DNA of 43,858 nucleotides, taken from positions 1 through 43,858 of the forward strand of contig JANQSZ010000009.1 of assembly GCA_028279045.1 (NCBI GenBank), in the 5' to 3' direction. Every line of letters begins with the position of its first letter. The stretch's first letter is position 1. Made by a program: the position numbers and the translations under genes. Source of the DNA: Candidatus Nanoarchaeia archaeon. Its GTDB lineage: Archaea > Nanobdellota > Nanobdellia > Woesearchaeales > UBA10216. Below the pieces are notes generated by a model that worked only from the letters and a program-made list of their open reading frames with translations, was not told the origin of the DNA and ran no database searches. Positions 11,833-40,895 of the stretch are shown piece by piece.

Positions 11833-13311
11833 TTAAAATCCTCTGCCGCCAGAGCTAAATCCTCCGCCGCCGAATCCGCCGCCACCGCTGAAGAATCCCC
11901 CGCCGCCAAAGCCGCCGCTAGATCTTGAAGAGGATGATGCTGAATCCAATACAGAGCCAAGAACAGAACCCCAGCTATCTGAGCTACTTGATCGTGACCG
12001 TGTTCTCCGCCTTCTCCTTGGTCTTGGCCGAGGTTTTGGTCGGACTTTATGTGCTATCCGCATTCTATTCCAAAGATCATCCGCAGTAATTCTGTCTTCG
12101 ACATACAGTTCTACAGCATCTTGAAGATCAAAGTCTGCATCAAAGTAGGATCTTCGCCCATCAAATCCAAACTGCCTGAACTTTGTCATAACTTCTGTGA
12201 ATCCTCGACGTTGATCTTCATGGTACCGAACTGTCAATTGCTGGTCCCTTGCTTGGTCTCTTTGATCATCTATTTCCCTCTTGAATTGATCAATGTTCTT
12301 CACCGCAAGATCGTCGTCGTAGCTATCTGATGATTGTGCAATTTCGTAAAGTTGTCTCAATGATTTTCCTTCAAGGAAGCCTCGCAGCTCACTAATTGCT
12401 CTTTGATGATATGTCCCTTTTGTATTTTCGAGGTGAGCTTCCCTCGTTTCCAAAGTATCGTGGTATCGTTCTTCTGATTCCAATCGACTCAATACCTCAT
12501 CTCGCGCAACTTCTGCTGCTTGAATCTTCTCATCAAGGGAGGGAATACCGACTGCCTCCGCAGTTCTTGCCTCTATCGCATCAGCAGCAGTCCCAACTCG
12601 CTCAAATTCTGCAATGATGTCTGCCAAGTAAACTTCCATCAACGCAGGCTTGGCAGTCAGTTCGTCATAGATGGGTTTAAAATCTTCAAAATCAATATGT
12701 TCAGCAACTTGCTGATCCCATTTACGAGTAAATGCATTACCTTCGTGTTGGTCAGTTCCAAACTTTCTTCTCACTAAATATTGGAAAAAAGGATCTTGAT
12801 ATGTCTCGAGGTACGCTGCATCTCGAGCAGTTTCCTCGTCAATGATTGCTCGTCCCTGGTCGACTAGTTCTTTCAGTTCTTGCTCCTGTTCTTCAAGAGC
12901 TGCATATTCTGGGTTCTGTTCAAGCCGCGCATCATAAGTTGCCAAAAGTGAATCTCGTTGACCTTCAAGCGCATTCACCCGTACTGTTGCTTGACGCAAT
13001 TCCCTCGCGGTAACTTTTTGCTGTTCTTCACTCTGCTCAATTTCCTCTTCAATTTGTTTTCGCTCAGCTTGTTTTTGGTCATAGAATTCTTGCACAGGCT
13101 TTTGATAAAAATCTAGATCTGAAATGGCTTGCAACGTTAAATTGGTCAAATGCGTTCTTGCAATCGTCTCGTAACTGTTGCGAATTCTTCTTGTTAACGT
13201 GCGTATTTCCCCTTCAATTCCATGCAATTGACTTACTGCACTTCTCCTTCTGCGATCTAACAAACCTTGCTGAGCTTCCAATATATCGTATGCAGCTTGT
13301 CCACTTACCAT
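11833..13311 (-). CDS. long coiled-coil protein with Arg/Ser-rich and Gly/Phe/Ser-rich low-complexity C-terminus (492 aa)
   Basis: Heptad-rich helical body; tail RPRPRRRRRTRSRSSSSDSWGS...SSGGFGGGGFFSGGGGFGGGGFSSGGRGF. Confidence 0.78.
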   Translation of the reverse strand: MVSGQAAYDILEAQQGLLDRRRRSAVSQLHGIEGEIRTLTRRIRNSYETIARTHLTNLTLQAISDLDFYQKPVQEFYDQKQAERKQIEEEIEQSEEQQKVTARELRQATVRVNALEGQRDSLLATYDARLEQNPEYAALEEQEQELKELVDQGRAIIDEETARDAAYLETYQDPFFQYLVRRKFGTDQHEGNAFTRKWDQQVAEHIDFEDFKPIYDELTAKPALMEVYLADIIAEFERVGTAADAIEARTAEAVGIPSLDEKIQAAEVARDEVLSRLESEERYHDTLETREAHLENTKGTYHQRAISELRGFLEGKSLRQLYEIAQSSDSYDDDLAVKNIDQFKREIDDQRDQARDQQLTVRYHEDQRRGFTEVMTKFRQFGFDGRRSYFDADFDLQDAVELYVEDRITADDLWNRMRIAHKVRPKPRPRPRRRRRTRSRSSSSDSWGSVLGSVLDSASSSSRSSGGFGGGGFFSGGGGFGGGGFSSGGRGF

Positions 13312-14768
13312 TGTGTTATTTGCCCCGTGTCTTCAAGTTCTCTTCGTGGATTACCAGGTTCGTGTATAGTTGGCGTTAGGTATCCTGGATCTTTGTACCC
13401 AACAACATTGTCGTCAACAATTCCATCCGCTTGCTTGTCATCAACAACATCTTCAAAGACTCTTTCCGGGAATTCTTGTCCGTATATGCTGGTGAGATAT
13501 GTCTTGCCATCTTCTTCGTTGGTAACAATAACATCAACAACATTTCCTTGCGGATCGTACGCTTCAACAATAAGGTACAGCCCGCTTGTTCGTCGACCAT
13601 TTTCATCAGTGTATATGCGATCGGTTCCCGACAATTCGCCAGGCCGACTTACAATCCTCAATTCATAGCTTGTCTTAAGTAATCGGTCGATGTGACCGAG
13701 AGTTTCGATCGTATCCTGTAGAGTTTCCATATCCTCATTGTCAATTGCAATGTTTCCTTGAGTGTAAAGTGAATCTGCTTGCTCCAAAGCAAGATCTTCA
13801 AGCGCAACATCTTGGATGGAATCATACAATCCATCGCGTTGGCCAATCAGCGTCGAGAAAACACCAATATCTGATGAAAGCATTGAAAGGTCGGCAGCAC
13901 GTTCTTGTGCTTCCACAACCAATCCTGTTGCAATTGCTTGCACTCCTTGAGCATACAAGTTTTCTGCTCGCAAAAGGAACCGTTGATCAGTAGTTTGATC
14001 TTGAACTGTTTGATACACTGAATCAAGCAATGTTTCTACGTTATCTAGATCAACACTTGCCTGAATGACATTCAAACCATTTGTTGATTGTATAATTGCA
14101 TCATCCAAATATACTCGAACGCGATTAACCTCTTCTCCAAGTTCGCCCATGTTTTCCCGGGTAACAAGTTCAGGAACATCCTCGTCACAATACACAACGA
14201 CAAATCCTTCTGACTGTGCTATTCCTTGCTGCACTCCATTTTGTGCAAACGCAATGTCACTCGCTAGCCCCGGTCGGACATCAGCTTCAACAAGCAGGTC
14301 AAGTTCAGAAACAAGCCGTACGTGATCGTCACACGCAGCAACAATGCCGGATTCAACGCGAGATTCTGTTCGTCCATCCTGCCAGTCGTTGTAAACAGCT
14401 GCTCCCAGAAAAACAGCTCCAACAGTGCCTGTGCCAACTATTGCCGGCACTCCTTTTGTTCTGAAGTGATGTCCGCGATTGATGTATGCAGAAAGAACTC
14501 TTCCTCGTGTTGATTGATCTGGAGAATCAAAGGTAAATTGATTTGCAAAGTATGCATCAATAGCAACGCGCATCTGATCATCGGTAAGCCCTCGGTCACG
14601 CGCTGTATTGATTGCTTGCAATCTTCTCAGAAATTCTTCTCGAATTTGTGGCCCTTGAAAGTATCGTTCAACTCTTTCTTCTACAGTTCGTGCCTCCCTT
14701 GCGAGGTCCATCACTCTGAGCTGATCGAGCGTATCAAAATCTACTTCTGGAGTACTTTCAGTAACCAT
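13305..14768 (-). CDS. DUF6384-like single-TM protein with C-terminal beta-rich domain
   Basis: Met start MVTESTPEVDFD; TM GVPAIVGTGTVGAVFLGAAV; C-terminal SGLYLIVEAYDPQGNVVDVIVTNEEDGKTYLTSIYGQEFPERVFEDVVDDKQADGIVDDNVVGYKDPGYLTP. Overlaps the downstream gene by 7 nt. Family name from memory. Confidence 0.72.
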   Translation of the reverse strand: MVTESTPEVDFDTLDQLRVMDLAREARTVEERVERYFQGPQIREEFLRRLQAINTARDRGLTDDQMRVAIDAYFANQFTFDSPDQSTRGRVLSAYINRGHHFRTKGVPAIVGTGTVGAVFLGAAVYNDWQDGRTESRVESGIVAACDDHVRLVSELDLLVEADVRPGLASDIAFAQNGVQQGIAQSEGFVVVYCDEDVPELVTRENMGELGEEVNRVRVYLDDAIIQSTNGLNVIQASVDLDNVETLLDSVYQTVQDQTTDQRFLLRAENLYAQGVQAIATGLVVEAQERAADLSMLSSDIGVFSTLIGQRDGLYDSIQDVALEDLALEQADSLYTQGNIAIDNEDMETLQDTIETLGHIDRLLKTSYELRIVSRPGELSGTDRIYTDENGRRTSGLYLIVEAYDPQGNVVDVIVTNEEDGKTYLTSIYGQEFPERVFEDVVDDKQADGIVDDNVVGYKDPGYLTPTIHEPGNPRRELEDTGQITQW

Positions 14769-14870
14769 GGGAAAGACTAATAGCAGTCCATTTATAGACT
14801 TTTGCTCATTCACTACTTTTTAATAGAGATCGTAGAAATCTTTATAATCTCACCCGGCTTTCTTTCTTCT

Positions 14871-19838: not shown

Positions 19839-19857
19839 CGCTTTCTTTTTTTTATTT
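19830..19857 (+). terminator. hairpin + T-tract terminator-like element
   Basis: AAGCGCcttta GCGCTTtctttttttt overlapping the stop of the MscS-like gene. Confidence 0.6.
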
Positions 19858-20789
19858 TATGTTCTTTGATTCTCGTATTGTAACGTCAAATTAGGCATCC
19901 AATTTCTTTCAGGAAAATTACTTTCACATTCAAAATACCAATCGTCTACAGTTCGTTGCAATGCACTATGACCGACCATGACTAATTGTCTGTTCTGCAA
20001 GTGTGTAGGAATGCCTAGCAGTTCTCCGTCTTTTGTTGTGACGACGACAGGGCTACTGCGACTTGGTTCTCGTGGCATGAAAAGATCGTAAAACGCCCCT
20101 GTTTGGTGCAAGTTGATTGCATCAACTTTTGCTTTGGCCCGTATGATATCAATAGAACTGCCTTGCTTGAACCCATTTCTAGTCATGTAATGCACATACA
20201 CTTCTTCACCAACATCAGGGTCTCGTTCAACAAATGATGCTCCTGGTGCAGGTCCATCAGAATTTTTCCCAGTGACGAAGTAAAGGTCTGCAAAACGATC
20301 AACTCTTTCTCCACGTTTCTTTCGATTCCCGGGGAAATGTGTTGAGCCAAGTTCTCCATTAGCTGATTGTACAACCTGGCCTGAATATTCTTCAGAAATA
20401 TTTCCTGTGTTTTGACCAATGTACACTCCTTTTCCTAGATGCACAACACCGGTCATATCAAACGCTCCGCGATTTTCAGAATACAGTACGCCAATATTCT
20501 CAACAACAGTGTCAAGATCTGTTGTGTCATAGTCAGGATCAATCGCACACATACCTGCACCTTGCCCTTGTTCTCTGCTGTCTTTGGCAGCTTTTTGCAA
20601 AGTGATGTATCCTGGTATAGTGCCGAAGTGAGTTACATCACGTGGTCCACCTTCAAAATCCCGTGCTGTCGGTGTTGTGGTTTCACGTGGCTCAGTAGTT
20701 GCTGGCTCTTCATCTCCATTACAGCCAACAATAACCGCGAGCCCTCCGGCAAGTCCGAACTCAAGAAACCGTCTTCTACTTATCATCAT
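19857..20789 (-). CDS. Tat-exported lipoprotein of unknown function, possibly trypsin-like fold
   Basis: SRRRFLEFGLAGGLAVIVGC (twin-arginine signal + lipobox Cys); C-terminal SRSSPVVVTTKDGELLGIPTHL resembles the GDSGSPVV..GxLVGI region of trypsin-like proteins. Confidence 0.72.
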   Translation of the reverse strand: MMISRRRFLEFGLAGGLAVIVGCNGDEEPATTEPRETTTPTARDFEGGPRDVTHFGTIPGYITLQKAAKDSREQGQGAGMCAIDPDYDTTDLDTVVENIGVLYSENRGAFDMTGVVHLGKGVYIGQNTGNISEEYSGQVVQSANGELGSTHFPGNRKKRGERVDRFADLYFVTGKNSDGPAPGASFVERDPDVGEEVYVHYMTRNGFKQGSSIDIIRAKAKVDAINLHQTGAFYDLFMPREPSRSSPVVVTTKDGELLGIPTHLQNRQLVMVGHSALQRTVDDWYFECESNFPERNWMPNLTLQYENQRT

Positions 20790-21002: not shown

Positions 21003-21707
21003 ATGAAATTAGTTCTCAAAAAGAGGCCAAAAAATCCTATCTTGATAGAGGGATTTCCAGGGTTTGGTATGGTAGGCGCCATAGCATCAGAATATTTGAT
21101 CCAAAACCTCAATACAGAGCAAATCGGCTCTATCCAGGTTGAGGAAGCACCAGCAATGGTTGCTGTCCACGACGCAAAACTTATCGATCCATTCTCAATT
21201 CATTACGACAAGAAGAACAATCTTGTTATCGTGCATGCTGTTACGATGGCGCAAGGTGTTGAATGGAAACTCGGCGACGTAATCATGGACGTTGTCAAAC
21301 AACTCGGTGTCAAAGAAATTGTTTCCCTCGAAGGCCTAGGCACAAATGCAGAGTCTTCAGAAGTGTTCTATTATTCAACATCTCCAGCAAGCAGGAAGCA
21401 ATTAGACAAGCTAAAATACAAACCTCTCGATGAAGGAATCATCCTCGGCTTAACCGCTTCATTACTAATCAAACATCAATCAACACCAGTTACATGCATT
21501 TTTGCAGAAACACATTCACAGATGCCAGACTCCCGTGCAGCAGCAAAGCTCGTCGAGGCTGTCGATTCGTACCTCGGATTAAAAGTAGATACAAAACCGC
21601 TTCTCGTCATGGCTGACGTCTTCGAAAAGAAGCTCAAAACCATCATGCAACAGACCCAAATCGCTTCAGATCAGCGTGATAGGAAACAGATGGACTACGT
21701 GGGTTAG
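21003..21707 (+). CDS. PAC2-family (proteasome assembly chaperone-like) protein
   Basis: PILIEGFPGFGMVGAIASEYLIQNL...GVKEIVSLEGLGT...GIILGLTASLLI...CIFAETHSQMPDSRAAAKLVEAVDSYLGLKVD. Confidence 0.92.
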   Translation: MKLVLKKRPKNPILIEGFPGFGMVGAIASEYLIQNLNTEQIGSIQVEEAPAMVAVHDAKLIDPFSIHYDKKNNLVIVHAVTMAQGVEWKLGDVIMDVVKQLGVKEIVSLEGLGTNAESSEVFYYSTSPASRKQLDKLKYKPLDEGIILGLTASLLIKHQSTPVTCIFAETHSQMPDSRAAAKLVEAVDSYLGLKVDTKPLLVMADVFEKKLKTIMQQTQIASDQRDRKQMDYVG

Positions 21708-23941
21708 CGGGCAACCTGCGCAACGTTATCTATAATTTCTAGCTGCGTTCTCTCATCAAGATAATTCAGCAAGTTTCCAACTGCTGCGAGAGGATCATCT
21801 AGTGCTTCAGCAGGCACAGTTAAGATAGGGTATCCTTCAGAGTCAAATGTTTTTGAATAATCGCTCCCTATAGAAACGTCGAATCCGGTAAGATCTTCAA
21901 TTTGCCGTCGTTGGGATTCATTATGTTGAGGCATTGGAAAGTCCGCTAAATAAACATCCTCACCAGATACGCCACGTAAAACTCGTCTTCCGCCGAGAAA
22001 TGCTGCCAATCCAGCCGCGCCTAGTCCAGCGGCCAATATGTAATCCATCGGCGTTCCCGGTTTCAGGTAATCTTCTGGATTAGTTGAAATGTAATCTCTT
22101 GGATCCATCGAAAACTGAATACCTCCCTCTCTAGTAACTTGCCTGGCAGAACTTATAGGTTCACCACGCCAATTACCAAGGTCATACTTTGCAGTTACCC
22201 GTTCTCCGTTTAGCTCGTATGGTCCTCTTTGGTCTACATTAGTTTCATCTAATACATTTCTAAACTCATCATCCAATCTTGGGGGTGTAAAATCAGCAAT
22301 TTGCCATTCTCCATCTTTTTGTATTTCGAGCCATGCATGGCCTCCGCCGTTTACCGTTCCAACTGCATAACGTACATTTGTGACACCTAGCTCTTCAAGA
22401 ATAAGAGCAGCATAGGTATTGCCAACAGAACAATAAGCCAATCTTTCTGCATCCATCGCTTCTGCCAAGCCATCATACTCTGTACTCATTTCTGGCGGTA
22501 TTGAACCGTATTCAAAAGTTCCCATGTGAGCTGCAACAGCTTGTATAATATCGTGCTGAGGCTGACCTCGCAAATGTTCAAGTTCTTTAGGAAGTTCAAA
22601 CTCCACAGAACTCTGTAATCGTTCTTCTGGCGCTTTGTCCGTCCACAGCCACAAGTCCTTTCCATGAACAAAGTTAGACGTATCCATGCGAACATAGCCA
22701 GGTATACCAACTGGTTGGCTAGCCACTAGACCTGCAAGTCCTTGGGTTGGCATATATCCGCCTCCACTAGAAATTCCGCCATATGATGGTGCAAAGCCAG
22801 TGTCAATTGTTTCAATCACCGCGCTATCGTCAAGAGGAAATTGCATTGATCCTGCACGGATTTCATTTGTTGATTCATCCACACTTGAGGTTACAGCGTT
22901 GTTAGCACCGGCTACAACGCCTCCCATCAAAACTGCTGCCAAACCAGCACCTACTGCCCATCTTGGAATTCGTGATCTTTTCTTTTCTTCCACATACGCA
23001 GGAGCTTTTTGTCCAGTGAGTCGTTCATAGAGAACTCTATCGTTTTTTGAAAGGTCTGCAGATGAATGTGCAATCTGATCTAAACTGAGCAATCCCTGGT
23101 TGCTTTGAAATTGTATTTGTTCTTTAATTATTTGTGCAATTTCTTCATTGTCTCCAAAGGAATCTTGCACAGATCGTAAAAGTGTCTGGTATGATCGAGG
23201 TGGAAGAGCTTTTGCTTCATCAGAATCTATGTATGCCTTAACAACATCAGGCACAACACTTTGCCATTCTTCAAATTGTTCTTTTCCCTTACCATCAACA
23301 ATTACTCTGGATTTGGTGAGTGTAGTTGGCAGATCATGTTCGTGCAATGCAATATCAACACCGCTAATGAATGGGAGTGTGGCTACAAATCGTCCTTGTT
23401 CGTATACCTTAATAGCTCCGCTAGATTGCGCATTGTATGCAATATCTCCTCGGAAATCTCCTTGTTCAAAAGTAAAATTATCAGTGCTCAAGTCCTCACC
23501 ATTTAACTGCACGTTCAAGTCAGAGCCAGAATACAGTTCTCGCAATCTGTCTGTTTCACCTTCAATTTGTTCTCGGTGGATGACCATTTGAGTTCCGTCA
23601 ACGAATTCTTTAGATGTTCCGACAGAAATGTTTCTATCAGCATCAACATGGATAGTTCGGTTTCCCGAGGCAATATCAATTTCAGCATAGTTGTCTGTAG
23701 GGGGCATGAGTACCATGACTGCATTCAGTCCCTGCTGTGCAGCATCATCAAAAAGAAGATCATCAAGACTCTTAGAGTGCGTAACTGTAAGGCTATCATC
23801 TTCCGTGACAATGTCCACACTAGCTCCAGGTTCATAGGCCTCACTAACAACATTGTGAACGTAATCAGTAGGATCAGTGTATCGACTACTTAACTTTCGA
23901 ACAAGATCTGGAAATGAGATATCAAAAGCGTCTCGTTTCAT
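21704..23941 (-). CDS. degenerate GHKL (Hsp90-like) domain + TM + transglutaminase-like domain + TM protein
   Basis: N-terminus DYVHNVVSEAYEPGASVDIVTEDDSLTVTHSKSLDD aligns with the GHKL N-box region of the neighbour but lacks catalytic residues; TM RWAVGAGLAAVLMGGVVAGANNAV; TGase-like YCSVGNTYAALILEELGV / GGGHAWLEIQKDGEWQIADFTPP (C-H-D); TM YILAAGLGAAGLAAFLGG. Confidence 0.75.
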   Translation of the reverse strand: MKRDAFDISFPDLVRKLSSRYTDPTDYVHNVVSEAYEPGASVDIVTEDDSLTVTHSKSLDDLLFDDAAQQGLNAVMVLMPPTDNYAEIDIASGNRTIHVDADRNISVGTSKEFVDGTQMVIHREQIEGETDRLRELYSGSDLNVQLNGEDLSTDNFTFEQGDFRGDIAYNAQSSGAIKVYEQGRFVATLPFISGVDIALHEHDLPTTLTKSRVIVDGKGKEQFEEWQSVVPDVVKAYIDSDEAKALPPRSYQTLLRSVQDSFGDNEEIAQIIKEQIQFQSNQGLLSLDQIAHSSADLSKNDRVLYERLTGQKAPAYVEEKKRSRIPRWAVGAGLAAVLMGGVVAGANNAVTSSVDESTNEIRAGSMQFPLDDSAVIETIDTGFAPSYGGISSGGGYMPTQGLAGLVASQPVGIPGYVRMDTSNFVHGKDLWLWTDKAPEERLQSSVEFELPKELEHLRGQPQHDIIQAVAAHMGTFEYGSIPPEMSTEYDGLAEAMDAERLAYCSVGNTYAALILEELGVTNVRYAVGTVNGGGHAWLEIQKDGEWQIADFTPPRLDDEFRNVLDETNVDQRGPYELNGERVTAKYDLGNWRGEPISSARQVTREGGIQFSMDPRDYISTNPEDYLKPGTPMDYILAAGLGAAGLAAFLGGRRVLRGVSGEDVYLADFPMPQHNESQRRQIEDLTGFDVSIGSDYSKTFDSEGYPILTVPAEALDDPLAAVGNLLNYLDERTQLEIIDNVAQVAR

Positions 23942-26019
23942 GCTGCAGCCTCCAATATTTCTCGTGCAGTGTCAAGGTCTTCAAGTTCTCTCGCTGCGTA
24001 ACTAGCCACAACTGCCCAAGGAGCAAATTCAACAGTTGGATTGAGTGCAATCTGATCAGGCTTAACGACAAAATGTGGGTCTGTTTCACGTAATTGATCC
24101 GCGTAAAAAACTTCTATGCCATCTATGCCATATTGAGCCAGAATTGAAGAAACTTCTCCAACAGTTTCCCACTGAGCATCTGTGAGATTTCCTGCATATT
24201 CTGAATAATTGGTTGGTATTACATCAGCTACTGCCGAAACTGCAGAACCAATGTGCGAAGGTACGCCATAAACGCCTCCGTCTTCGCTATGATGATCAAC
24301 AATTCCCTCAACAAAGGAATCTTTTGCATTCTGAATTCGTGTTCTTGCATATCCTTCAATTGCACCTTCAGCTGCCGTTACAAGGCCTACTCCTACAACT
24401 CCTCCAAATTCTGCTGCGCCAGCAGCAGCAAGAGGCTCACTACCGGAGGCAGCTCCTGCAATCATGGTCACAGGGCCTGCTGCAAGAGCACCCAATGCGG
24501 TAATAGGTATTGCATATTCTTGTACCTTGTAATCATCCCAGTCATCGTCCTTGAATTTTCCTACAATTGAGGAAACTCCTCGACTGTATAGTTTTGCAAT
24601 CCCAGCCATTGCTCGTGGAAATAGAGATTTTTCAAAATTTGATTCAAATGCATTTCTTTCATCTCTTTGACTTCGTAAAAAATCTGCAAAGTGATCGGCA
24701 ATCCATTGCTCGTTTGGCGTTCCATCTGGATTAAGCAATGTACTGTTAATAAATCGATTATAATCTGACAGCCGTGTCGACAAGTTTAATCGACTCAAAT
24801 CTGTTTCTCCGCCGTGGCCAAGTTTCTTGGCTTCTTCTAGTGTGTATGCAATAACGTATTGCAATACTGGATCGTCAATGATAGTGTCTCGAGACCAAAC
24901 AGGGTCAAGTTCGTCAGAGTTCACAACACCTTCCAATCCAGGAACATCTATTGATGCAAGTCGAATTTCGTGGTTCAGGATATGTAATTTACCTGTTTCT
25001 GAACGACGTATGTGTCCTTGTATGCGATCAGTATCAATGATTCGTGCACCATTCTCTTCGGTAAGAAGAGGTTGATTGATCTTTGAAGTTCCGTTCTCTG
25101 TGTGTAAATAAATCGGTGTAGTAGAGTTGTATGTGCAATCTTCCTTAATTATGTCAACAAATCTATCAAAATTGATATCTGTGTCTTCAGGAAATTGAAT
25201 TTCTACTGACGTTCCATATTCTGTTCTGTTCGTCGGCTCAATATCATCGCGCTGCAAGTTGTTGTCAACAACAACTAAGCCTCCGCCGCCTTCAATTGCT
25301 TTAGTGTCGACGGTGACAGTTTCATGTCCAGCACCAAACGCGCTAACAGCGCCCATTCCGAATTTACCTGCAGCATGTTCTAAGTATTCATTCAGTGATT
25401 TGAAAAGATTAAAGTAAACACCGTCCAATGTTTCGGCAGTCATTCCTGTTCCAGTGTCTTCGACACGGAAGATTCGTGCTTCTTTGTCGACGGTGATATC
25501 AATTTGTGCATTTGGAATTGTTGCTGTTGCTGCAGCTGCATTCTGATACAATTCTCTAGCAAGATGTTCAGGAAATTCGAACTGTCCTGTCAGAACAGAC
25601 GAAATAAATTCGCGAAGTTGTGCAGGATTCTGTTCAGCCTGCTGGTATTGAGTTGAAATGGATTGCATGCGAGTTTGCTGTTCTTCTCGACGGGCCATAG
25701 TTTCTTCAACTAATTGTTCTAGCTCGGTTAAATCAACAGCACTCTCTACAGCACTTCGTTCCTTGTACAATGTTCCCATTGCATGGGCGACTTCTTCCGG
25801 CGCAAAGTACGCTGCTTTCCAATATTTATCGTTAGGATTAAAAACTTCGGGTGCATGCACGATGAGTCGCTCATCTGGTGAAAATCTGTTTCGCGCAGAA
25901 TTAGCTGCCTCTAAGTCGGAAAGAACGCTAAGCTCAGGGTGGTAAACAAGGGTGTGTATTGGTTTACCTCGTAGCTGAACACCTGCCCGTCCTGCTAATC
26001 TACCGAGTGCATTAAGCAT
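23938..26019 (-). CDS. Hsp90-like GHKL-type ATPase with C-terminal hydrophobic/membrane segments
   Basis: FPEHLARELYQNAAAATATIP (N-box), FRVEDTGTGMTAE (DxGxG), GKFGMGAVSAFGAG (G2), S5-like GTSVEIQFPEDTDINFDRFVDIIKEDC; hydrophobic IPITALGALAAGPVTMIAGAASG. Met start MLNALGRLAG with SD AAGGAGG upstream. Confidence 0.82.
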   Translation of the reverse strand: MLNALGRLAGRAGVQLRGKPIHTLVYHPELSVLSDLEAANSARNRFSPDERLIVHAPEVFNPNDKYWKAAYFAPEEVAHAMGTLYKERSAVESAVDLTELEQLVEETMARREEQQTRMQSISTQYQQAEQNPAQLREFISSVLTGQFEFPEHLARELYQNAAAATATIPNAQIDITVDKEARIFRVEDTGTGMTAETLDGVYFNLFKSLNEYLEHAAGKFGMGAVSAFGAGHETVTVDTKAIEGGGGLVVVDNNLQRDDIEPTNRTEYGTSVEIQFPEDTDINFDRFVDIIKEDCTYNSTTPIYLHTENGTSKINQPLLTEENGARIIDTDRIQGHIRRSETGKLHILNHEIRLASIDVPGLEGVVNSDELDPVWSRDTIIDDPVLQYVIAYTLEEAKKLGHGGETDLSRLNLSTRLSDYNRFINSTLLNPDGTPNEQWIADHFADFLRSQRDERNAFESNFEKSLFPRAMAGIAKLYSRGVSSIVGKFKDDDWDDYKVQEYAIPITALGALAAGPVTMIAGAASGSEPLAAAGAAEFGGVVGVGLVTAAEGAIEGYARTRIQNAKDSFVEGIVDHHSEDGGVYGVPSHIGSAVSAVADVIPTNYSEYAGNLTDAQWETVGEVSSILAQYGIDGIEVFYADQLRETDPHFVVKPDQIALNPTVEFAPWAVVASYAARELEDLDTAREILEAAA

Positions 26020-26155
26020 TTGTATCCTCCTTGAGAAGTTCGTTAGATGCATACTCTATAAAATGACTTACATTGCGATACCGTCCTTGCTCTACTCTGC
26101 TAAGTATTGCAGCAGCAGTATCTTCGTCGACGGTAATGGATAGTTTGCGTTTCAT
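26012..26155 (-). CDS. ribbon-helix-helix (MetJ/Arc/CopG-like) DNA-binding protein, 47 aa
   Basis: Read directly: MKRKLSITVDEDTAAAILSRVEQGRYRNVSHFIEYASNELLKEDTNA; typical RHH layout (beta strand KLSITVDE, helix, G-x-Y-x-N-x-SHFIE, helix). Its stop overlaps the start region of the GHKL gene. Confidence 0.82.
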   Translation of the reverse strand: MKRKLSITVDEDTAAAILSRVEQGRYRNVSHFIEYASNELLKEDTNA

Positions 26156-26180: not shown

Positions 26181-26188
26181 TATTTAAA
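26181..26188 (-). promoter_or_regulatory. TATA box for the RHH-GHKL operon
   Basis: TTTAAATA on the minus strand about 26-30 nt upstream of ATG at 26155. Confidence 0.55.
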
Positions 26189-26575
26189 CTTTTCTATTTG
26201 TTGTCACTGTATAGTGGTATATAGTATGTAGCGTATCTATGTGTACAGTATTCACTCTCACTTTCTCACTCTCTTGGCTGGTGCCTAACGCCTTTACTTA
26301 TAAAGCAGTGAGTGTGCGCAGCATACTTGCCCAAAAACACTGTTTCACTACTGCTACAATATCGATATTCCATCGACACTTTCCTTTCCTCCACAACATG
26401 AAATAACTATCCAAAAGTATAATAAAACTATTAAGCAATAACCGCTATTTTTATTCCATACAGCATCACAATAATTAAGAATAAATTAAAACATTTATTA
26501 TCTACAACAGAATACAAACACTTATATAGTCATAAGATTAGTAACTGGTAAGTAACTACATATTAGGGGTGGAAA

Positions 26576-32568: not shown

Positions 32569-35500
32569 ATGAGAAAAAGCAATAGTGATGAAAAAGGAAT
32601 TGTCACTAAGTTTGCGACACTTTTTGTCATGACCATTTTGACATTGAGTTTGCAAGGCTTAGTGCTCACTGGTGCACTAACAGCTACTTTAGCTACTGTG
32701 CCTAGTGTAGCCGCTGCTAATGGCGTCGGCGAAGTTCGTTCCGTTGCTCTTGGAGATATTCCAGACAACATGCACGAACTAGATAGACAGGCCCTAGATG
32801 ATGGGGAAAAACCAGTTATTACCGAATTGGTAGAAAAAGACTGGCACTTCCGCATTCATAATGACGGGATTCTGGGAGAAGAGTGTATTGATGAAATTAT
32901 CATTACGTTCCCAGATGATTGGACAGGACACATTAACCCTGACGATGTTACCGTTATGAATATGGGCGCTGTGAACATTACCAATCAACGAGATGATGGT
33001 ACAAACTCCGGTTTAGTTGAGGACAACCAATCGATTAGAATTGTTCCTAACTTTAACGAAGACGGTGTAATAATCTGTCCTTCGGCTACAGTTGACATCA
33101 TCTATGACCAGCCTGACGGCGACCAAGATGACTTGGAAGCTCCTGAAGGCCCACAAGATCAAGACATTACCATTATGACTTCTGATCAGGCTTCTAACGA
33201 ACCTTCCAACAACCACGTACGTGAAGTTATGGAATTGGTTCCTGTTAAAGTAAGCGAAGCTGAAACTGTAGTTATTCGATACCTCGACTTCATTAGCGTT
33301 GGCGCAGGAGTTGGCGGTGTTGATGTAGCTGTTGAAGCAGAAGCTAAGGGTGCTTGGGCTCGCTTGACTGAATTGTACTTGTCAGCAAACCAGGCTACAA
33401 CAGTTGACGTCTACTTAGATGACGGAGACGGTACCCTTGATGGCGATGATTTCAAGATCGCAGACACTGCTGCAGTTGGAACAACACCAACAATTGTTAC
33501 TCTATCCTATGATGGATCAGAGGACATTATTGGAAACGTTGTTGATGGTTTTGTGAAAGACTCTGCACAAGGTGGAAGCAATGTAGATTACTGGATTGTT
33601 GACACTGGTGGAGCTGCCGCATGGTCAATTCTTGGTCACGCAGATGAAGACGCTGATCAAACAATCGACCCAACGTACTCCGGTACTGGCGTAAGCAACC
33701 CTCCAAAGGAAGGTACCGTGATTAACGTAGAAAACCCTCCAATGCACAGACACATTGTTGCTCAATTGGTATACAACGAAACGTCAATTAACAGATACCT
33801 TGACATTCAAGAAGACGGTATACCTATTTACTACACAACTGGTCTTTCCGACTTTATTTTCGGAAGCCCACGTGATACTGACTCAGATGGTCAGGTAGAA
33901 ATTGAACTTCTTCCTGGTACTGAAGCTGGTAACACAGATGTTGTTGTATGTTTCCCTGACCCAGAGTGTACAAATGAACACGTACACATCAGCCCTGGTG
34001 TAGCAAACTACTTTGAAGTAGACGCTCCTATGATGGTTGAAGCTGGTGACCTAGCGGAAATCGTAGTAACAATCTATGATCAGTACGGAAACGTTATCTC
34101 AAACGAGTTTGACAGACCTGATGTATCTTGGGAAATCCTAAATGCACCTGGTCCTGATGCAGACTTGGACGATGACGAGTTGCCTGCCTTTAACGGTGAC
34201 GGCGACGGTTTCGAAACTGAACAAGCAGACCTTGGTATTGGCGACGCTGATCTTCAAACTTCCGGTACAATTGGTAACCACGAAGTTGAAGTGTGTGTTG
34301 TTGGTAACAATGCAGATCTAGGATGTCAACTTGTTGAAATCCTTGGTAAGCTTGGTCAAGGAAACCAGATTGACTGTATCATTCCAGACGATCTTCAACG
34401 ACATGATGGTCGACAGCTACCAGTTAACACACTGCAAGCTGACCAATGTATGGACGTAGTTGTGATTGTTCGAGATGCACAAGGTAACCCACTCGAAGAA
34501 TGGGAATCAATCGTACAGATTGACTTGGAAGATCTTGTTCAGAACCCACACGGTGAAACATTCACCATTGTCTCTACAGACCTTCGTGAAGAAATGATTT
34601 CCGAAGACGGAACAAGTGTAAAGGGTAAGCTAAACAACAATGAAATCGCTGAAGCTATTGTAACCATTTGTGGTTGTGGTGGTCTTGGTGACTTCGATCT
34701 TGTTTGTCGAACCGACACACTTGACGACGATGTTGAAGATATCGACGTTATTAACTCAGCACCAACATGTATTGATGTTGGCGTAGAATCCGACATGTGT
34801 GGAGACCACGCTACAATCGATACAAGTATCGTAGATACTTGTTGGAACCGCGTGCAGGATCAAGAATGTACAGAAGGTGGCCACGCTGCTTCCTGTATTG
34901 CACTTGATGCATCCTGTGGTGAGCTATCCTCAGACAAGACTTGTGTTGATTTGAGAAACACAGGTGAAGCTCCTGACATTTGGCTCGACACAAGTGCATG
35001 TGGTTGTGGTGACATTGAAATCACAGCTGTAGACGAACCTGACTGCTGTCCTTCAGTATACTCCGGAACACTTCCAATGTGTGACTTTGATGGAGACACA
35101 GTACCTGATCAGGTATTGTTCAACAAAGTCGGTCCAGTAGACCACATTGATATGGAAGTTGCACCAGATGCTGAAAACCAGGATGACTTCTGGGTATCAG
35201 AGTTAACTCATGTTAGCTTGATTGCTCGGGATGCATGTGGTCAGGAAGCAATCTGTGACGAGTTCCCAGTTGATGTTGAATTGACAGGCGAAGATTGTGT
35301 TGATACAACTATCCAAGTTGACAGCCCAGTTATCAGCGGTCAAGAAGAAATCAACGTTGAACTATTGAAGAACGAAGACGATTCAGATCACGCAAGTGGT
35401 CAAGTAATGCGATCTGTCGAAGACGGTAAGTATGTATACCGCATCTGGCTTGAAGATGTTGCGTACTCACACACTGAGTTCCAACTTGTCTTCAGTGAAG

Positions 35501-38500
35501 ATGACGACGATCCGTCCTGGCTTGTAGGATGGGACCCTGTTGTTTCAACAACACTTCCAACATACAAGGAATACAACGCAGGATGGGGCGCAGGTACTAC
35601 TGTACTACCTCCAGGTCTTGAAGTTGATGGAAACATCGGCGACAAGCACTTTGAAGTTCGTGTACCACTCGATATCCATGAACCATGGTGGGGATTGAAT
35701 GTTGGTGTCGTTAAGGCTAACGTCGGCGGCAGTAGCAAGTTCTCCACATACCCAGGACCAGATTGGAAATGGTCTGGCGGTCAAGGAACATGGGCAGGCG
35801 GAACTTGTGAACTACCAGAATCTGCTGTTCACAAGATCGTTATCGAGAACTGTAACGACCCAGTCAAAGACTGGACAGACAAACCGCAAGAAGCTGACAT
35901 CGTAGTAGACAAGATCGCTTTCGAATATAACGGTCCAACAAACAATGTAACCGTATGTATTTGGGAAGAAAATGAGTTAGAAGCCGGCTTCCAAAGTGGC
36001 GGTGATAACGCAGATCTTGCCTGGGAATGTATCGACTTGAGTGATATACCAAATATTCCAAGTAACGATGGAACTCCAGGACCAAACAACAACGGTGCAT
36101 GGGATGAAATCCACTCAGTCTCACAGACTGAAGATGGTGTATATCTCATCGAACTCCAAACCAGAATTTCCGAATGGAACCAAGGTAACGAGTTTGACAA
36201 CCAACGTTTGGGCGGTGCAGTTATTGAACCACAAGACACTCGAGACTTTTACTTTGTAATTACAGGTCAAGAGCAAGCTTGTGGCGAATTCGACGCTGAC
36301 TACCTATACTTCCAGGATTACAACAGTCCGGACATTGTAAGCTTCTCAAGCGGACACGTTCGTGACACACTTGAAAACTCGGAAGAATGGACTCAAAGAA
36401 ACGACGACTACACAGACCCTGATCCATATCCAGTACACGGCGTTACGCCTGACTACGGATTTGGAGATCGTGTACTTCACGACCTAGTACTAGGCGCAGG
36501 CGCTTGGTTCAAGTTCCGTGACCTTGTTGCAGAAACTGTCAACATCTTTGTGGATACCATCTACTCAATCAACTTGATTGACAATGGTCTCCCTGTAGCT
36601 GCTGGCAACCAAGCACAGGTTACGTTCCTTGCACAGCCAGCAACACAAGTTGTTGCTCGACAGCACGGCGACCTAACTGGCGACGGTTCAATCTGTGATG
36701 ACGAAGGTTTCGACCCTGAGCTCGTTTACGACTTCAAGGAAGGTCCAGGAAGATTCGCAATCGATGAAGACGAAGGTGCTGAACTAACTTGTCGACCAGC
36801 AATGGCATGTAGTGACGAAGGTTACGACATCAACTTGCAGGTTACAGATGGTTTCCAGAACCAAGTTGAACTCGAAGGCGTTGAAGTACAGCTCCACAGC
36901 TGTCTAATGTTCCCTCGATTCCTCTACTTGGGCGACACACTCGTTCCAGAAGAGATCGTTGAGAACCATGTAGAAGATGGTGTACTCACCATTGACTTGT
37001 GGGCTTACTTAGACCTAGACGACTACGAAGAAACGCACTCAGACCCATGGGACGTTTGTTACGACGAAAGCCGTTTCAGACTTGCTGTGGGTGAAGCACT
37101 GACAGACTACGTGACCGAAGATCACATGTTTGTTCCAGCATTCCTTGAGAGCACTGAGTTTACCTCATTCATCCACTCTGTCTTTGAAGACAAGCAGGTT
37201 GAATTTGTGCCTCAGCCAGGCTTCCCTATTACAGTGGACGCAGCTGGTCACAATGTTGTAACAACTGACGCAAACGGTCAGGCAGTTATCCGCGTAGAGA
37301 GCGACGACAGTTCATACGGCGCAATCAAGAGCTTGGATACATCATTCCGTATCTTTACGGTACCACACGCTCTTGATGCTGACTACTTCGACATTGCCTT
37401 CTCCCCAGGAGAACCGGCAAAGTGGGATGCAATTGCTATCCCTGAAGTAGGTGTACCTGCTGACGGAGAACAAGAAGCTAAGATCTTGATCCGAAAGACA
37501 GATGCATGTGGCAACCCAGTTGCACTACAAAATGTGGAAGACGAGAAGGTTATCGTAACCGCTCACTCCGATTCAGGACGAGCAGTTATTAGCCGAGACT
37601 TTAGCCACGAGAACAACTACGACAACACTGTAGAAGGATACCTTTCACAGTGGTCATGTCATGTCTTGTTCCCATGGTTCGAAGACTGCCACCTAGAAGT
37701 GCTAAACGACGTTATTGAAGATGTCCACGTAACTGTTGAAGACCACCCAGATGTTTGTGAAAGCTCTGGCGATGGTTTCTGTTCAGGACCACAAGGACTA
37801 GGATGTGAAACATTCCTAGAAGAAGAACTGTGTCCTGTAGCAGAAGGTTGTGAGTGGATCTCAGAGGCAGTGTGTCAAGAAATGGATTCAGCATACGTTG
37901 AATTTGTTGGTGCACCAACTCACCTAGAGATCGTTGAAATCAAACACTCAGACTTGCTTCCAGCAGACGGTTGGCGAGGAGAAACATCATCACAGCTCCA
38001 ACTCCCTGCGAACGCTTGTTCGCACGACGAGATTAGAGAATGTGAACTCTATGACAACCCAGACATCTGTTACGAAACATGTGTACAATACGGTAACTCC
38101 GGTGCATGGTTTGACGTTGAAATCCAAGATAAGTTTGACAACGTTGTCACAACTTACCTAGGCGACGGCTTCCAAGGAGATCCTGGTGATGAGGAAGGTA
38201 TTCCTGACTACATCGCTGAAAAGATCTGTGTGCACTTGGACGATAGCAACGCATTCATCCAGGATGCAACATTCGGATGGATCCACTTGTTGAACAACCC
38301 ACCATACATCAACGATAAGGGTACCATTTACTGTGGTGACCTTGCGTTCGGTAACGGTGCATTCAAGGTTGTGTACAACATGTTGGATAACGGCAACCAG
38401 CCAACTATTCCAGCAGGATCCAGCGAAAAGGTTATCGTAACTGTATTCGATGCATGTGACGACGAAGAGTGGGTACAAAACGGTTGGGACTCCGGCCGAT

Positions 38501-39600
38501 TTGACGACTACTGTAACGCGCAAGAATACAACGAGAACAACTTGCCTGACTCGGAAACAGCTTCACGGCTAGACCCTTCAGCTGGTGAACTGAACTTTGT
38601 TTCAGTTGCTGACGGTTGGGACATCGGTGCAGACAAGCTTGTTGTAGCAGCAGATGGTGAAGACCACGCAGTCATTACCATCCAAGCGCAGAACAGCTTC
38701 GTTGACAACGACGGTAACATCGGACACCAGAACATCCGAACAAGCCTTGATGCAACTGTGCAGTCTAGCTTGATTGGTTCAAAGCTAACATCTGAAGCAA
38801 TTACGCCAGGATGTTATGTCGAAGGAAACTACGACCCATTGAACCCTACAAGCCTGAACGTACGTACAGAAGCATGTAGCGGCGGTTCAGCTGAACTACA
38901 CTTGACAAGCACTAAACCAGGAACAGCTCAAGTATCTGTTTCCGGTCAGAGCTTTGGATGTAAGTTGGTTATCCCTGAGATCAGTGATCCTTATGTGATC
39001 CCATACTGTTCTCAATGGGGAGTTATTCCACTTGCACCTAAGTCAATCGACGTGCAGTTCAACCAAGCATACCAAGATCAGATCGTACTTGAAGAAGGAT
39101 GGAACTTCTTCAGCGTTCCAAACGAACTTGCTCCTGCAGGTAACGAATGGAATGAGATCGGCTTGAACACTGCTTGTCTTGCATCCGCTATGTGGGATGA
39201 CAACAGTCAGACCTTTGTAGCAGTGCCAGGCACAACAGTTGTTGAACCTCTCGAAGGTTACTGGTGTTTCAGTACATCTGCACAAACCCTTGATGTAGAA
39301 CCACTTGCACAGAACGGCGTATACTTGCCTCCAATGAAGTCCATCGTGGCTGGTTGGAACGATGTAGGTCTAAGTGCTCGAACAGAGACTCTTATGGAGC
39401 ATGCTCTGATCAGCATCGACAGCATCTACACACAAGTGCTTGACTGGGCAGAAAGCTTGCAGCGTTACGCTGGCTACGCTAACACAGGCGAAGCAGGCGG
39501 CGGTTCAGCTCCAGGAACAACTGGAACTGAGAACATGCAGGCTGGTGACGCATACTTCGTCTTCGCAGGCGACAGTGGTCAACTAGCAGGACTGAGCTAA
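32569..39600 (+). CDS. giant secreted surface protein (2343 aa), S-layer/adhesin-like with Ig-like beta domains
   Basis: N-terminal signal KFATLFVMTILTLSLQGLVLTGALTATLATVPSVAAA; repeated MVEAGDLAEIVVTIYDQYGNVI- and ADGEQEAKILIRKTDACGNPV-type modules; C-terminal LEEGWNFFSVPNELAP domain. Confidence 0.88.
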   Translation: MRKSNSDEKGIVTKFATLFVMTILTLSLQGLVLTGALTATLATVPSVAAANGVGEVRSVALGDIPDNMHELDRQALDDGEKPVITELVEKDWHFRIHNDGILGEECIDEIIITFPDDWTGHINPDDVTVMNMGAVNITNQRDDGTNSGLVEDNQSIRIVPNFNEDGVIICPSATVDIIYDQPDGDQDDLEAPEGPQDQDITIMTSDQASNEPSNNHVREVMELVPVKVSEAETVVIRYLDFISVGAGVGGVDVAVEAEAKGAWARLTELYLSANQATTVDVYLDDGDGTLDGDDFKIADTAAVGTTPTIVTLSYDGSEDIIGNVVDGFVKDSAQGGSNVDYWIVDTGGAAAWSILGHADEDADQTIDPTYSGTGVSNPPKEGTVINVENPPMHRHIVAQLVYNETSINRYLDIQEDGIPIYYTTGLSDFIFGSPRDTDSDGQVEIELLPGTEAGNTDVVVCFPDPECTNEHVHISPGVANYFEVDAPMMVEAGDLAEIVVTIYDQYGNVISNEFDRPDVSWEILNAPGPDADLDDDELPAFNGDGDGFETEQADLGIGDADLQTSGTIGNHEVEVCVVGNNADLGCQLVEILGKLGQGNQIDCIIPDDLQRHDGRQLPVNTLQADQCMDVVVIVRDAQGNPLEEWESIVQIDLEDLVQNPHGETFTIVSTDLREEMISEDGTSVKGKLNNNEIAEAIVTICGCGGLGDFDLVCRTDTLDDDVEDIDVINSAPTCIDVGVESDMCGDHATIDTSIVDTCWNRVQDQECTEGGHAASCIALDASCGELSSDKTCVDLRNTGEAPDIWLDTSACGCGDIEITAVDEPDCCPSVYSGTLPMCDFDGDTVPDQVLFNKVGPVDHIDMEVAPDAENQDDFWVSELTHVSLIARDACGQEAICDEFPVDVELTGEDCVDTTIQVDSPVISGQEEINVELLKNEDDSDHASGQVMRSVEDGKYVYRIWLEDVAYSHTEFQLVFSEDDDDPSWLVGWDPVVSTTLPTYKEYNAGWGAGTTVLPPGLEVDGNIGDKHFEVRVPLDIHEPWWGLNVGVVKANVGGSSKFSTYPGPDWKWSGGQGTWAGGTCELPESAVHKIVIENCNDPVKDWTDKPQEADIVVDKIAFEYNGPTNNVTVCIWEENELEAGFQSGGDNADLAWECIDLSDIPNIPSNDGTPGPNNNGAWDEIHSVSQTEDGVYLIELQTRISEWNQGNEFDNQRLGGAVIEPQDTRDFYFVITGQEQACGEFDADYLYFQDYNSPDIVSFSSGHVRDTLENSEEWTQRNDDYTDPDPYPVHGVTPDYGFGDRVLHDLVLGAGAWFKFRDLVAETVNIFVDTIYSINLIDNGLPVAAGNQAQVTFLAQPATQVVARQHGDLTGDGSICDDEGFDPELVYDFKEGPGRFAIDEDEGAELTCRPAMACSDEGYDINLQVTDGFQNQVELEGVEVQLHSCLMFPRFLYLGDTLVPEEIVENHVEDGVLTIDLWAYLDLDDYEETHSDPWDVCYDESRFRLAVGEALTDYVTEDHMFVPAFLESTEFTSFIHSVFEDKQVEFVPQPGFPITVDAAGHNVVTTDANGQAVIRVESDDSSYGAIKSLDTSFRIFTVPHALDADYFDIAFSPGEPAKWDAIAIPEVGVPADGEQEAKILIRKTDACGNPVALQNVEDEKVIVTAHSDSGRAVISRDFSHENNYDNTVEGYLSQWSCHVLFPWFEDCHLEVLNDVIEDVHVTVEDHPDVCESSGDGFCSGPQGLGCETFLEEELCPVAEGCEWISEAVCQEMDSAYVEFVGAPTHLEIVEIKHSDLLPADGWRGETSSQLQLPANACSHDEIRECELYDNPDICYETCVQYGNSGAWFDVEIQDKFDNVVTTYLGDGFQGDPGDEEGIPDYIAEKICVHLDDSNAFIQDATFGWIHLLNNPPYINDKGTIYCGDLAFGNGAFKVVYNMLDNGNQPTIPAGSSEKVIVTVFDACDDEEWVQNGWDSGRFDDYCNAQEYNENNLPDSETASRLDPSAGELNFVSVADGWDIGADKLVVAADGEDHAVITIQAQNSFVDNDGNIGHQNIRTSLDATVQSSLIGSKLTSEAITPGCYVEGNYDPLNPTSLNVRTEACSGGSAELHLTSTKPGTAQVSVSGQSFGCKLVIPEISDPYVIPYCSQWGVIPLAPKSIDVQFNQAYQDQIVLEEGWNFFSVPNELAPAGNEWNEIGLNTACLASAMWDDNSQTFVAVPGTTVVEPLEGYWCFSTSAQTLDVEPLAQNGVYLPPMKSIVAGWNDVGLSARTETLMEHALISIDSIYTQVLDWAESLQRYAGYANTGEAGGGSAPGTTGTENMQAGDAYFVFAGDSGQLAGLS

Positions 39601-39700: not shown

Positions 39701-40885
39701 ATGACACGAAAACTAGCAATGGCAGTCGTAGTGATACTATCCATTACGCTACTGTCAGGTCTCGTAGCAGCCCAACCAGTACTACCAGCCTTCTATTACG
39801 GCGACGCAGCAATCAACGGTCGCGATGTTCCTGTTGACTCAGTGATCACCGCCAGAATTAACGGCCAAGACCGTGGATCAATTACCGTAACAACGGCTGG
39901 GCAATATGGCGTACCTCCTCTCGAAGGATATGGTGATGCCAAACTTAACGTTCAAGGTACCATCGATGAAGATGGCGCTGAAATTTCATATTTCCTCAAA
40001 GCACCTGGCCTTGAGGAAATTCAAGCTACCGAAAAAGGTGCTTGGCACACAAACACACTGAACGAAGAACCACTCGAAGACTACGAAACAACATCACCAT
40101 TTGATTTAACATTCAACGGCGATGAAGTTTCCGACGGCTCTGACATTGGCACAACCGGAAGTTCCGGTGGTGGCGGCGGTGGCGGTGGCGGCTCTGGCTC
40201 CTCAGGAGGAGGCGGTGGCGGCGGAGGCGGCTCTCCAAGCACGTCAGCAAGTCAAGCGTTCTTCTACGATATCATTCGTGGAAATGAACAAGTTGACTCT
40301 GTTGTTCGAAATGAAAACATCCCAGTAACTCGTTTACAACTAATCATCAACGATGATACAGAACAAGTTACGATCACAATCGCAAGCGAAGATGACCCTG
40401 ACCGGGACATCGATGATGCAGCCGGATACTTTACCATTGAATCAGATCAAATTAATGACGATCTGATCAAGACGGCAATCATTCGTTTTGAAGTACCAAA
40501 CGAATGGTTTGAAGAAAACGACTTCGACCCTCAAACATTGAAGTTGCACAGGTTAGATGGTCGCCGATGGGTTGAACTACAAACAGTTCATTCCGGCGGA
40601 GATGATGAAACTAATCTGTACAGAGCAGCAACTCCTGCTTTCGGTTTATTCGGAATGCAAGGTGCTGAAGCAGCAGAAACAGAAACTACTGGAACTGAAG
40701 AGGAAGAAGACGACAGCTCACCGCTTGATGGCGGCATGAGTGCAATCGCAGAAGTGGTTGTTACCGAAGAAGGCGAACCAACGCCTGTCGGTGGCGCACT
40801 GGTGATTGTCATTATTGTTGTTGTAGGCCTACTGGCTTACATTGCAGGCGCGAAAATATCGGCGCGAATGTCAAAGAAGAAATGA
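39701..40885 (+). CDS. surface protein: shared N-terminal module, poly-Gly linkers, PGF-pre-PGF-like domain, C-terminal TM anchor
   Basis: MTRKLAMAVVVILSITLLSGLVAAQ signal; FYYGDAAINGRDVPVDSVITARINGQ; GSSGGGGGGGGGSGSSGGGGGGGGGS; FEVPNEWFEENDFDPQTLKLHRLDGRRWVELQTVHSGGDDETNLYRAATPAFGLFGM; C-terminal TM + KISARMSKKK. Confidence 0.87.
   Translation: MTRKLAMAVVVILSITLLSGLVAAQPVLPAFYYGDAAINGRDVPVDSVITARINGQDRGSITVTTAGQYGVPPLEGYGDAKLNVQGTIDEDGAEISYFLKAPGLEEIQATEKGAWHTNTLNEEPLEDYETTSPFDLTFNGDEVSDGSDIGTTGSSGGGGGGGGGSGSSGGGGGGGGGSPSTSASQAFFYDIIRGNEQVDSVVRNENIPVTRLQLIINDDTEQVTITIASEDDPDRDIDDAAGYFTIESDQINDDLIKTAIIRFEVPNEWFEENDFDPQTLKLHRLDGRRWVELQTVHSGGDDETNLYRAATPAFGLFGMQGAEAAETETTGTEEEEDDSSPLDGGMSAIAEVVVTEEGEPTPVGGALVIVIIVVVGLLAYIAGAKISARMSKKK
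40160..40233 (+). repeat. two GGN-rich tracts encoding (Gly)9 linkers
   Basis: ggtggtggcggcggtggcggtggcggc and ggaggaggcggtggcggcggaggcggc. Confidence 0.8.
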
Positions 40886-40895
40886 GTGTGGAAAA

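Follow-up and report, generated by a model that had tools for sequence, protein, structure and literature searches.

In a small-genome DPANN archaeon, two overlapping genes, P1 and P2, encode an Hsp90-like ATPase with a membrane anchor and a protein in which a degenerate Hsp90-like module is joined to an extracytoplasmic transglutaminase-fold domain. This domain composition is well supported. Whether P1-P2 act as a heterodimer of Hsp90-like subunits that is anchored in the membrane and governs the extracytoplasmic enzyme through its ATP cycle is, in our judgement, evenly balanced. The window, i.e. the whole stretch of 43,858 nucleotides that was analysed, is contig C23 of a genome of 1.02 Mb that is 90% complete.

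Layout, promoter and distribution of the operon

Three ORFs, all on the minus strand, were read in the sequence where the first-pass annotation had placed them, with the overlaps it had described (Table 1). P1 begins with an ATG at 26019, preceded by a GGAGG Shine-Dalgarno sequence within the 3' end of the RHH gene, and 8 bases are shared between its start and the RHH stop (ATGCTTAA). The P2 start in turn overlaps the P1 stop by 4 bases (ATGA), and P2 has a GGAGG of its own. At the far end, P2 is convergent with a PAC2-family gene (21003-21707), the 3' ends overlapping by 4 bases. With a G+C content of 0.433 versus 0.440 for the window, the operon carries no mark of recent foreign DNA.

Table 1. 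Features of the P1-P2 operon, in window coordinates
Feature	Position	Strand	Basis
Palindromic promoter element CACTATACAGTG, consensus CACTATATAGTG	26205..26216	-	comparable element in the same position before transglutaminase-type operons
Archaeal BRE/TATA (GAAAAG TTTAAATA)	26181..26194	-	sequence; same arrangement in relatives
RHH-like protein, 47 aa	26012..26155	-	sub-threshold ParD/RHH_1; accessory, seen only in the operon of the window's genome
P1, 693-aa membrane-anchored Hsp90-like GHKL ATPase	23938..26019	-	Pfam, PDB profile search, AlphaFold and Foldseek, homologues
P1 GHKL (Bergerat) ATP-binding domain, motifs intact	25063..25608	-	invariant motifs, 51% mean identity
P1 Hsp90-like middle domain	24688..25062	-	invariant S376-R377; Foldseek alignment spans Hsp90 N+M
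P1 hydrophobic hairpin, 2 TM in the window	24376..24513	-	hydropathy
P2, 745-aa pseudo-Hsp90 / TM / transglutaminase-fold / TM protein	21704..23941	-	sequence, homologues, Foldseek, hydropathy/charge
P2 degenerate Hsp90 N+M module	23012..23941	-	Foldseek to TRAP1, hhalign via intermediate family, alignment
P2 TM1	22904..22960	-	basic residues on N-terminal side; positive-inside in 5/5 homologues
P2 extracytoplasmic transglutaminase-fold domain, triad C504/H535/D550	22262..22621	-	PF01841, PDB 4xz7, invariant triad
P2 TM2	21992..22048	-	basic residues on C-terminal side
P2 cytoplasmic C-terminal small domain	21707..21964	-	pLDDT about 70; weakly conserved

The BRE/TATA element of the window lies 25 nt upstream of the first ATG, and the operon transcript is likely leaderless. 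In the relatives this element is mostly found 22-26 nt before the P1 ATG, P1 being the first gene after the promoter. Searching for the exact composite of palindrome and BRE/TATA gave eight occurrences in seven genomes, four of them at P1, and none for the reversed control. The composite also precedes a few other genes (L097, L098, L099, L100), which encode a GGDEF-like protein and unknown ORFs; with about one other gene per genome, a small regulon is possible.

In the case of the 47-aa upstream gene, the ORF stands, and its reading as a ribbon-helix-helix protein is plausible on profile matches that are sub-threshold (ParD, 19.9 bits versus 21; RHH_1, 16.1 versus 20.5). The proposed three-gene system under RHH control did not hold. 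In the five relatives readable at this point (G002, G174, G194, G306, G310), no RHH gene was present upstream of P1, which directly follows the promoter. We thus describe a two-gene core with a local accessory regulator and reject the RHH protein as part of the conserved system; it looks like an addition at the leader position of one operon.

The two large genes belong together, as the first-pass annotation had supposed. P1-type and P2-type genes occur in the same seven of the 353 genomes of the order, neither of them alone, and the carriers are spread across several families. Wherever no contig end intervenes, the two genes lie side by side and share the ATGA overlap; in G192, G194 and G310 contig ends interrupt or split the operon. 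The homologues are 28-37% identical, and the preservation of gene order and overlap at this divergence, wherever contigs reach, places the observation well above chance. Moreover, P1 and P2 identities co-vary (r = 0.86, from 10 non-independent pairs). Altogether, P1-P2 is an obligate, translationally coupled pair.

Every relative with a name was a MAG of Candidatus Woesearchaeota, recovered from groundwater or another environmental source. When 371 genomes were drawn from the whole phylum, strong P1 matches over the full length came only from genomes of the order that had already been identified. Likewise, no carriers other than these Woesearchaeota turned up in a scan of 84,980 species, which relies on short conserved peptides and may overlook remote relatives. 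The query mattered in the contig scan: a single P1 sequence gave no relatives, and an alignment recovered them.

The genes next to P1-P2 differ from genome to genome (aRF1, HisRS, TatD, PAC2, HD-domain, Elp3-like and PIN genes). The immediate neighbours are mostly of housekeeping type, PIN genes adjoining the operon in two genomes; they are not conserved and point to no substrate. Elsewhere in the window, 32569-39600 encodes what is likely a giant surface protein, of 2343 aa, whose match to an Ig-like domain (Big_1) is weak; a MopE-type repeat protein follows (40842-42548). The ORF at 19857-20789 has a weak Tat-signal match and no other Pfam family, and the one at 13305-14813 has a strong DUF6384 match and adjoins an unknown 492-aa ORF.

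Hsp90-like modules and the transglutaminase-fold domain

The domains that had been proposed for the two large proteins, i.e. an intact Hsp90-type GHKL ATPase with hydrophobic C-terminal segments and a degenerate GHKL half followed by an outward-facing transglutaminase-like core, were all recovered. The three outcomes named beforehand as refuting the reading were lack of a GHKL fold, lack of a transglutaminase fold and homologues occurring singly, and each check turned out in its favour. P1 matched HATPase_c_3 (2.2e-7) and HATPase_c (4.2e-7) in Pfam, both over the curated cut-offs. The GHKL domain is its best-conserved part, and the N-box (E156/N160), D188xG190xG192 and G218..G221xG223 are invariant across all aligned homologues. 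So is the S376-R377 pair, at the position of the Hsp90 catalytic-loop Arg of the middle domain. In the PDB profile search, the matches listed were Hsp90-family proteins (Grp94, 4.4e-7). The AlphaFold model is of medium quality as a whole (mean pLDDT 60), with the ATPase part mostly at 70-90. Foldseek aligned this model to Hsp90 N+M at E-values of 7e-14 to 7e-12, many of the alignments having an rmsd of about 5 Å across 370 columns. After the middle-like domain comes a hairpin of two to four TM helices, depending on the homologue, and then a small tail. A repeated domain common to the P1 N-terminus, the P1 tail and the P2 tail was considered and found no support.

The homologue alignment of P2 no longer shows the E..N and DxGxG motifs or the glycine-rich one, and a TKSR sequence (209-212) is invariant. 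The window P2 alone gave no significant match in Pfam, and a PDB profile search with full-length P2 gave none. The N-half of the P2 model folds like Hsp90 N+M, all 50 matches listed by Foldseek being of the Hsp90 family and the best being TRAP1 (E 2.3e-10). Their TM-scores are low (about 0.2) and their rmsd large because the domain arrangement is unreliable in a model of medium quality (mean pLDDT 56). A direct profile comparison of P1 and P2 was weak (E 0.12), though in register. The two could be bridged by P2-like proteins that have no transglutaminase domain and keep visible GHKL motifs: hhalign linked these to P1/GHKL (98.6%, E 1.2e-15) and to P2 (8.3e-5). As these pairs connect to both, the homology of P1 and P2 is settled, and the ATPase modules of both proteins are specifically Hsp90-like (N+M).

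Regarding the second half of P2, Transglut_core (PF01841) was matched by three of five homologues (best 1.1e-5), the window P2 staying under detection. A PDB profile search with this domain found 4xz7 at 3.5e-4, and an NCBIfam scan of this part had no matches. C504, H535 and D550 are invariant among the homologues and readable also in the contig-split G310 copy. The domain is the best-conserved part of P2, with a mean identity of 39% versus 21-24% for linker, TM2 and tail. By the positive-inside rule, the charges flanking the TM helices put it outside in 5/5 P2 proteins. Proteins of the transglutaminase fold include peptidases, amidases and inactive members.

Pairs of a GHKL and a pseudo-GHKL gene without transglutaminase, in the same order, were seen at L007 (2780-19998 of G058), L010, L042, L047 and L051, with three pairs in tandem in G058. 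In several of these sister operons a protein of 390-420 aa precedes the pair, and unknown proteins of about 350-480 aa are also present. In G058 the preceding protein has a J-domain, and the sister P1 encoded in the same operon matches Pfam SACS over cut-off. Taken together, these operons look like an undescribed Hsp90-like operon family.

A possible mechanism and its alternatives

The composition suggests that cytoplasmic ATP switches chemistry at the cell surface. In the cytoplasm, the N+M modules of P1 (live site) and P2 (dead site) would dimerise. ATP binding and hydrolysis by P1 would then open and close the clamp, and this movement would pass through the membrane helices of both proteins to alter the activity or the access of the transglutaminase-fold enzyme outside. 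The enzyme in turn might crosslink, amidate or cleave surface proteins, amounting to inside-out control. In the genome of the window only, the operon is probably under autoregulation by the RHH protein, whose gene lies between the promoter and P1. Heterodimerisation, ATP gating and coupling, the direction of the signal, the chemistry (here ATP-gated crosslinking or proteolysis) and the substrate are parts of this scheme that we infer.

The signal could also run outside-in instead. Sensor kinases typically combine a GHKL domain with an outside domain flanked by TM helices, an arrangement which P1-P2 resemble. The transglutaminase-fold domain might accordingly bind or modify an outside ligand, with the Hsp90-like pair as cytoplasmic output, comparable to histidine kinases; since no output domain was identified in P1, this output could be a conformational change. 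We nevertheless regard such a sensor as rather improbable, because neither a DHp (His-phosphorylation) domain nor a response regulator was seen, the P1 ATPase is Hsp90-like and not kinase-like, and a mere sensor needs no intact catalytic triad. A chaperone or foldase in the membrane that serves secreted or surface proteins, replacing the missing Hsp90 while the transglutaminase completes or trims clients outside, is unlikely as well. It would fit an order without canonical Hsp90, and archaea in general have been reported to be without HtpG/Hsp90 except for a divergent Hsp90-like gene (PMC1525184). It would also fit the related pairs encoded beside a J-domain protein in the same order (L007). 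However, a system present in seven of 353 genomes is not general housekeeping, and the J-domain neighbour is found only in a sister operon without transglutaminase.

The patchy distribution across several families might rather point to conflict, either defence or action against neighbouring cells, with P1 sensing invasion and freeing a damaging transglutaminase or protease outside; GHKL ATPases and transglutaminase-like peptidases are both known from conflict systems (PMC3710099; PMC7159879). This possibility appears quite remote to us, as the PADLOC defence models matched neither P1, P2 nor RHH, and nothing matching P1-P2 came up in viral contigs or in phage and plasmid records. Furthermore, a defence-island context, for which the first-pass annotation had proposed a check, was not seen among the mostly housekeeping neighbours, which differ per genome and include PIN genes in two. 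Finally, the weak ParD match and the overlap of RHH with P1 would agree with a toxin-antitoxin unit with RHH as antitoxin, but the relatives keep P1-P2 without RHH and no ParE-like toxin is present, so that this idea is barely credible.

The preferred reading is one of inside-out control. In its widest form, P1-P2 would be a membrane-spanning heterodimer of one live and one dead Hsp90-like subunit, coupling cytoplasmic ATP to a transglutaminase-fold enzyme outside; it would have evolved in an archaeal lineage lacking Hsp90 and would be one branch of a broader family of Woesearchaeal operons with GHKL and pseudo-GHKL genes. This wider statement is put forward tentatively, as somewhat short of an even chance. 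To our knowledge, known Hsp90s are soluble or lumenal chaperones, and none acts across a membrane on an enzyme. If true, a live/dead pair with such an enzyme outside would broaden the roles of this ATPase fold, provide a handle on surface remodelling by host-dependent archaea and offer a system for testing directly what a single dead ATP site does in a dimer of the Hsp90 type. The sister family, for its part, suggests that Hsp90-like operons form a diversified class in archaea without Hsp90.

Comparison with known systems

As the first-pass annotation had supposed, searches of family models, defence models and the open-access literature brought up no described system with such a composition. 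In the open-access literature, no work joining Woesearchaeota and transglutaminase was found, GHKL, transglutaminase and archaea together led to HEPN toxins only, and the titles and abstracts for Woesearchaeota and Hsp90 showed nothing related.

With Hsp90, HtpG and TRAP1, P1 shares the E..N and DxGxG motifs, the Gly-rich lid and the conserved middle-domain Arg, and both proteins share the N+M fold match, in the case of the P2 N-domain by fold only. Unlike these chaperones, P1-P2 are anchored in the membrane and come from two unequal genes, one of the two ATP sites being dead. Again unlike Hsp90/HtpG, no match to the C-terminal dimerisation domain was found, and all Hsp90 models stay under their curated cut-offs; the best NCBIfam match of P1, HtpG, reached 32.8 bits, far under the cut-off of 371. 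The lineage itself is without canonical Hsp90: in a search that found its positive controls, none of 145 genomes of the order had a match to PF00183, and neither had the window's own genome. Sacsin and sacsin-like Hsp90 repeats also consist of Hsp90-like modules, and P1 scored below threshold against the sacsin model (23.9 bits versus 50). The window P1-P2 are without UBL, HEPN and J-domain and have membrane anchors and a transglutaminase domain instead.

TgpA (Pseudomonas PA2873) has a DUF3488 with five TM helices, and its operon partners are MoxR AAA+ and DUF58 proteins. The transglutaminase domain of this membrane protein lies in the periplasm and is active (PMC3507681). Like P2, TgpA and related membrane transglutaminases have an outward Cys-His-Asp core flanked by TM helices, and co-transcribed neighbours. 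Here, however, a pseudo-Hsp90 module is fused to the transglutaminase and an Hsp90-like ATPase is encoded alongside, and no Pfam match to DUF3488, MoxR or DUF58 was present in P1, P2 or the scanned immediate neighbours. In the case of LapD/LapG, cytoplasmic c-di-GMP exerts inside-out control over a periplasmic transglutaminase-like protease (PMC3032545, PMC4359373), and P1-P2 may follow a similar logic, in which a cytoplasmic nucleotide state governs a transglutaminase-fold enzyme across the membrane. They differ from it in that the enzyme is fused to the membrane protein and that ATP would take the place of c-di-GMP; P1-P2 gave no match to GGDEF/EAL or HAMP. We draw both parallels as analogies and do not claim membership in either system. 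As P1-P2 fell outside each of the nearest families, we rate their composition as categorically new, and counting them as a divergent Hsp90-like family is also defensible.
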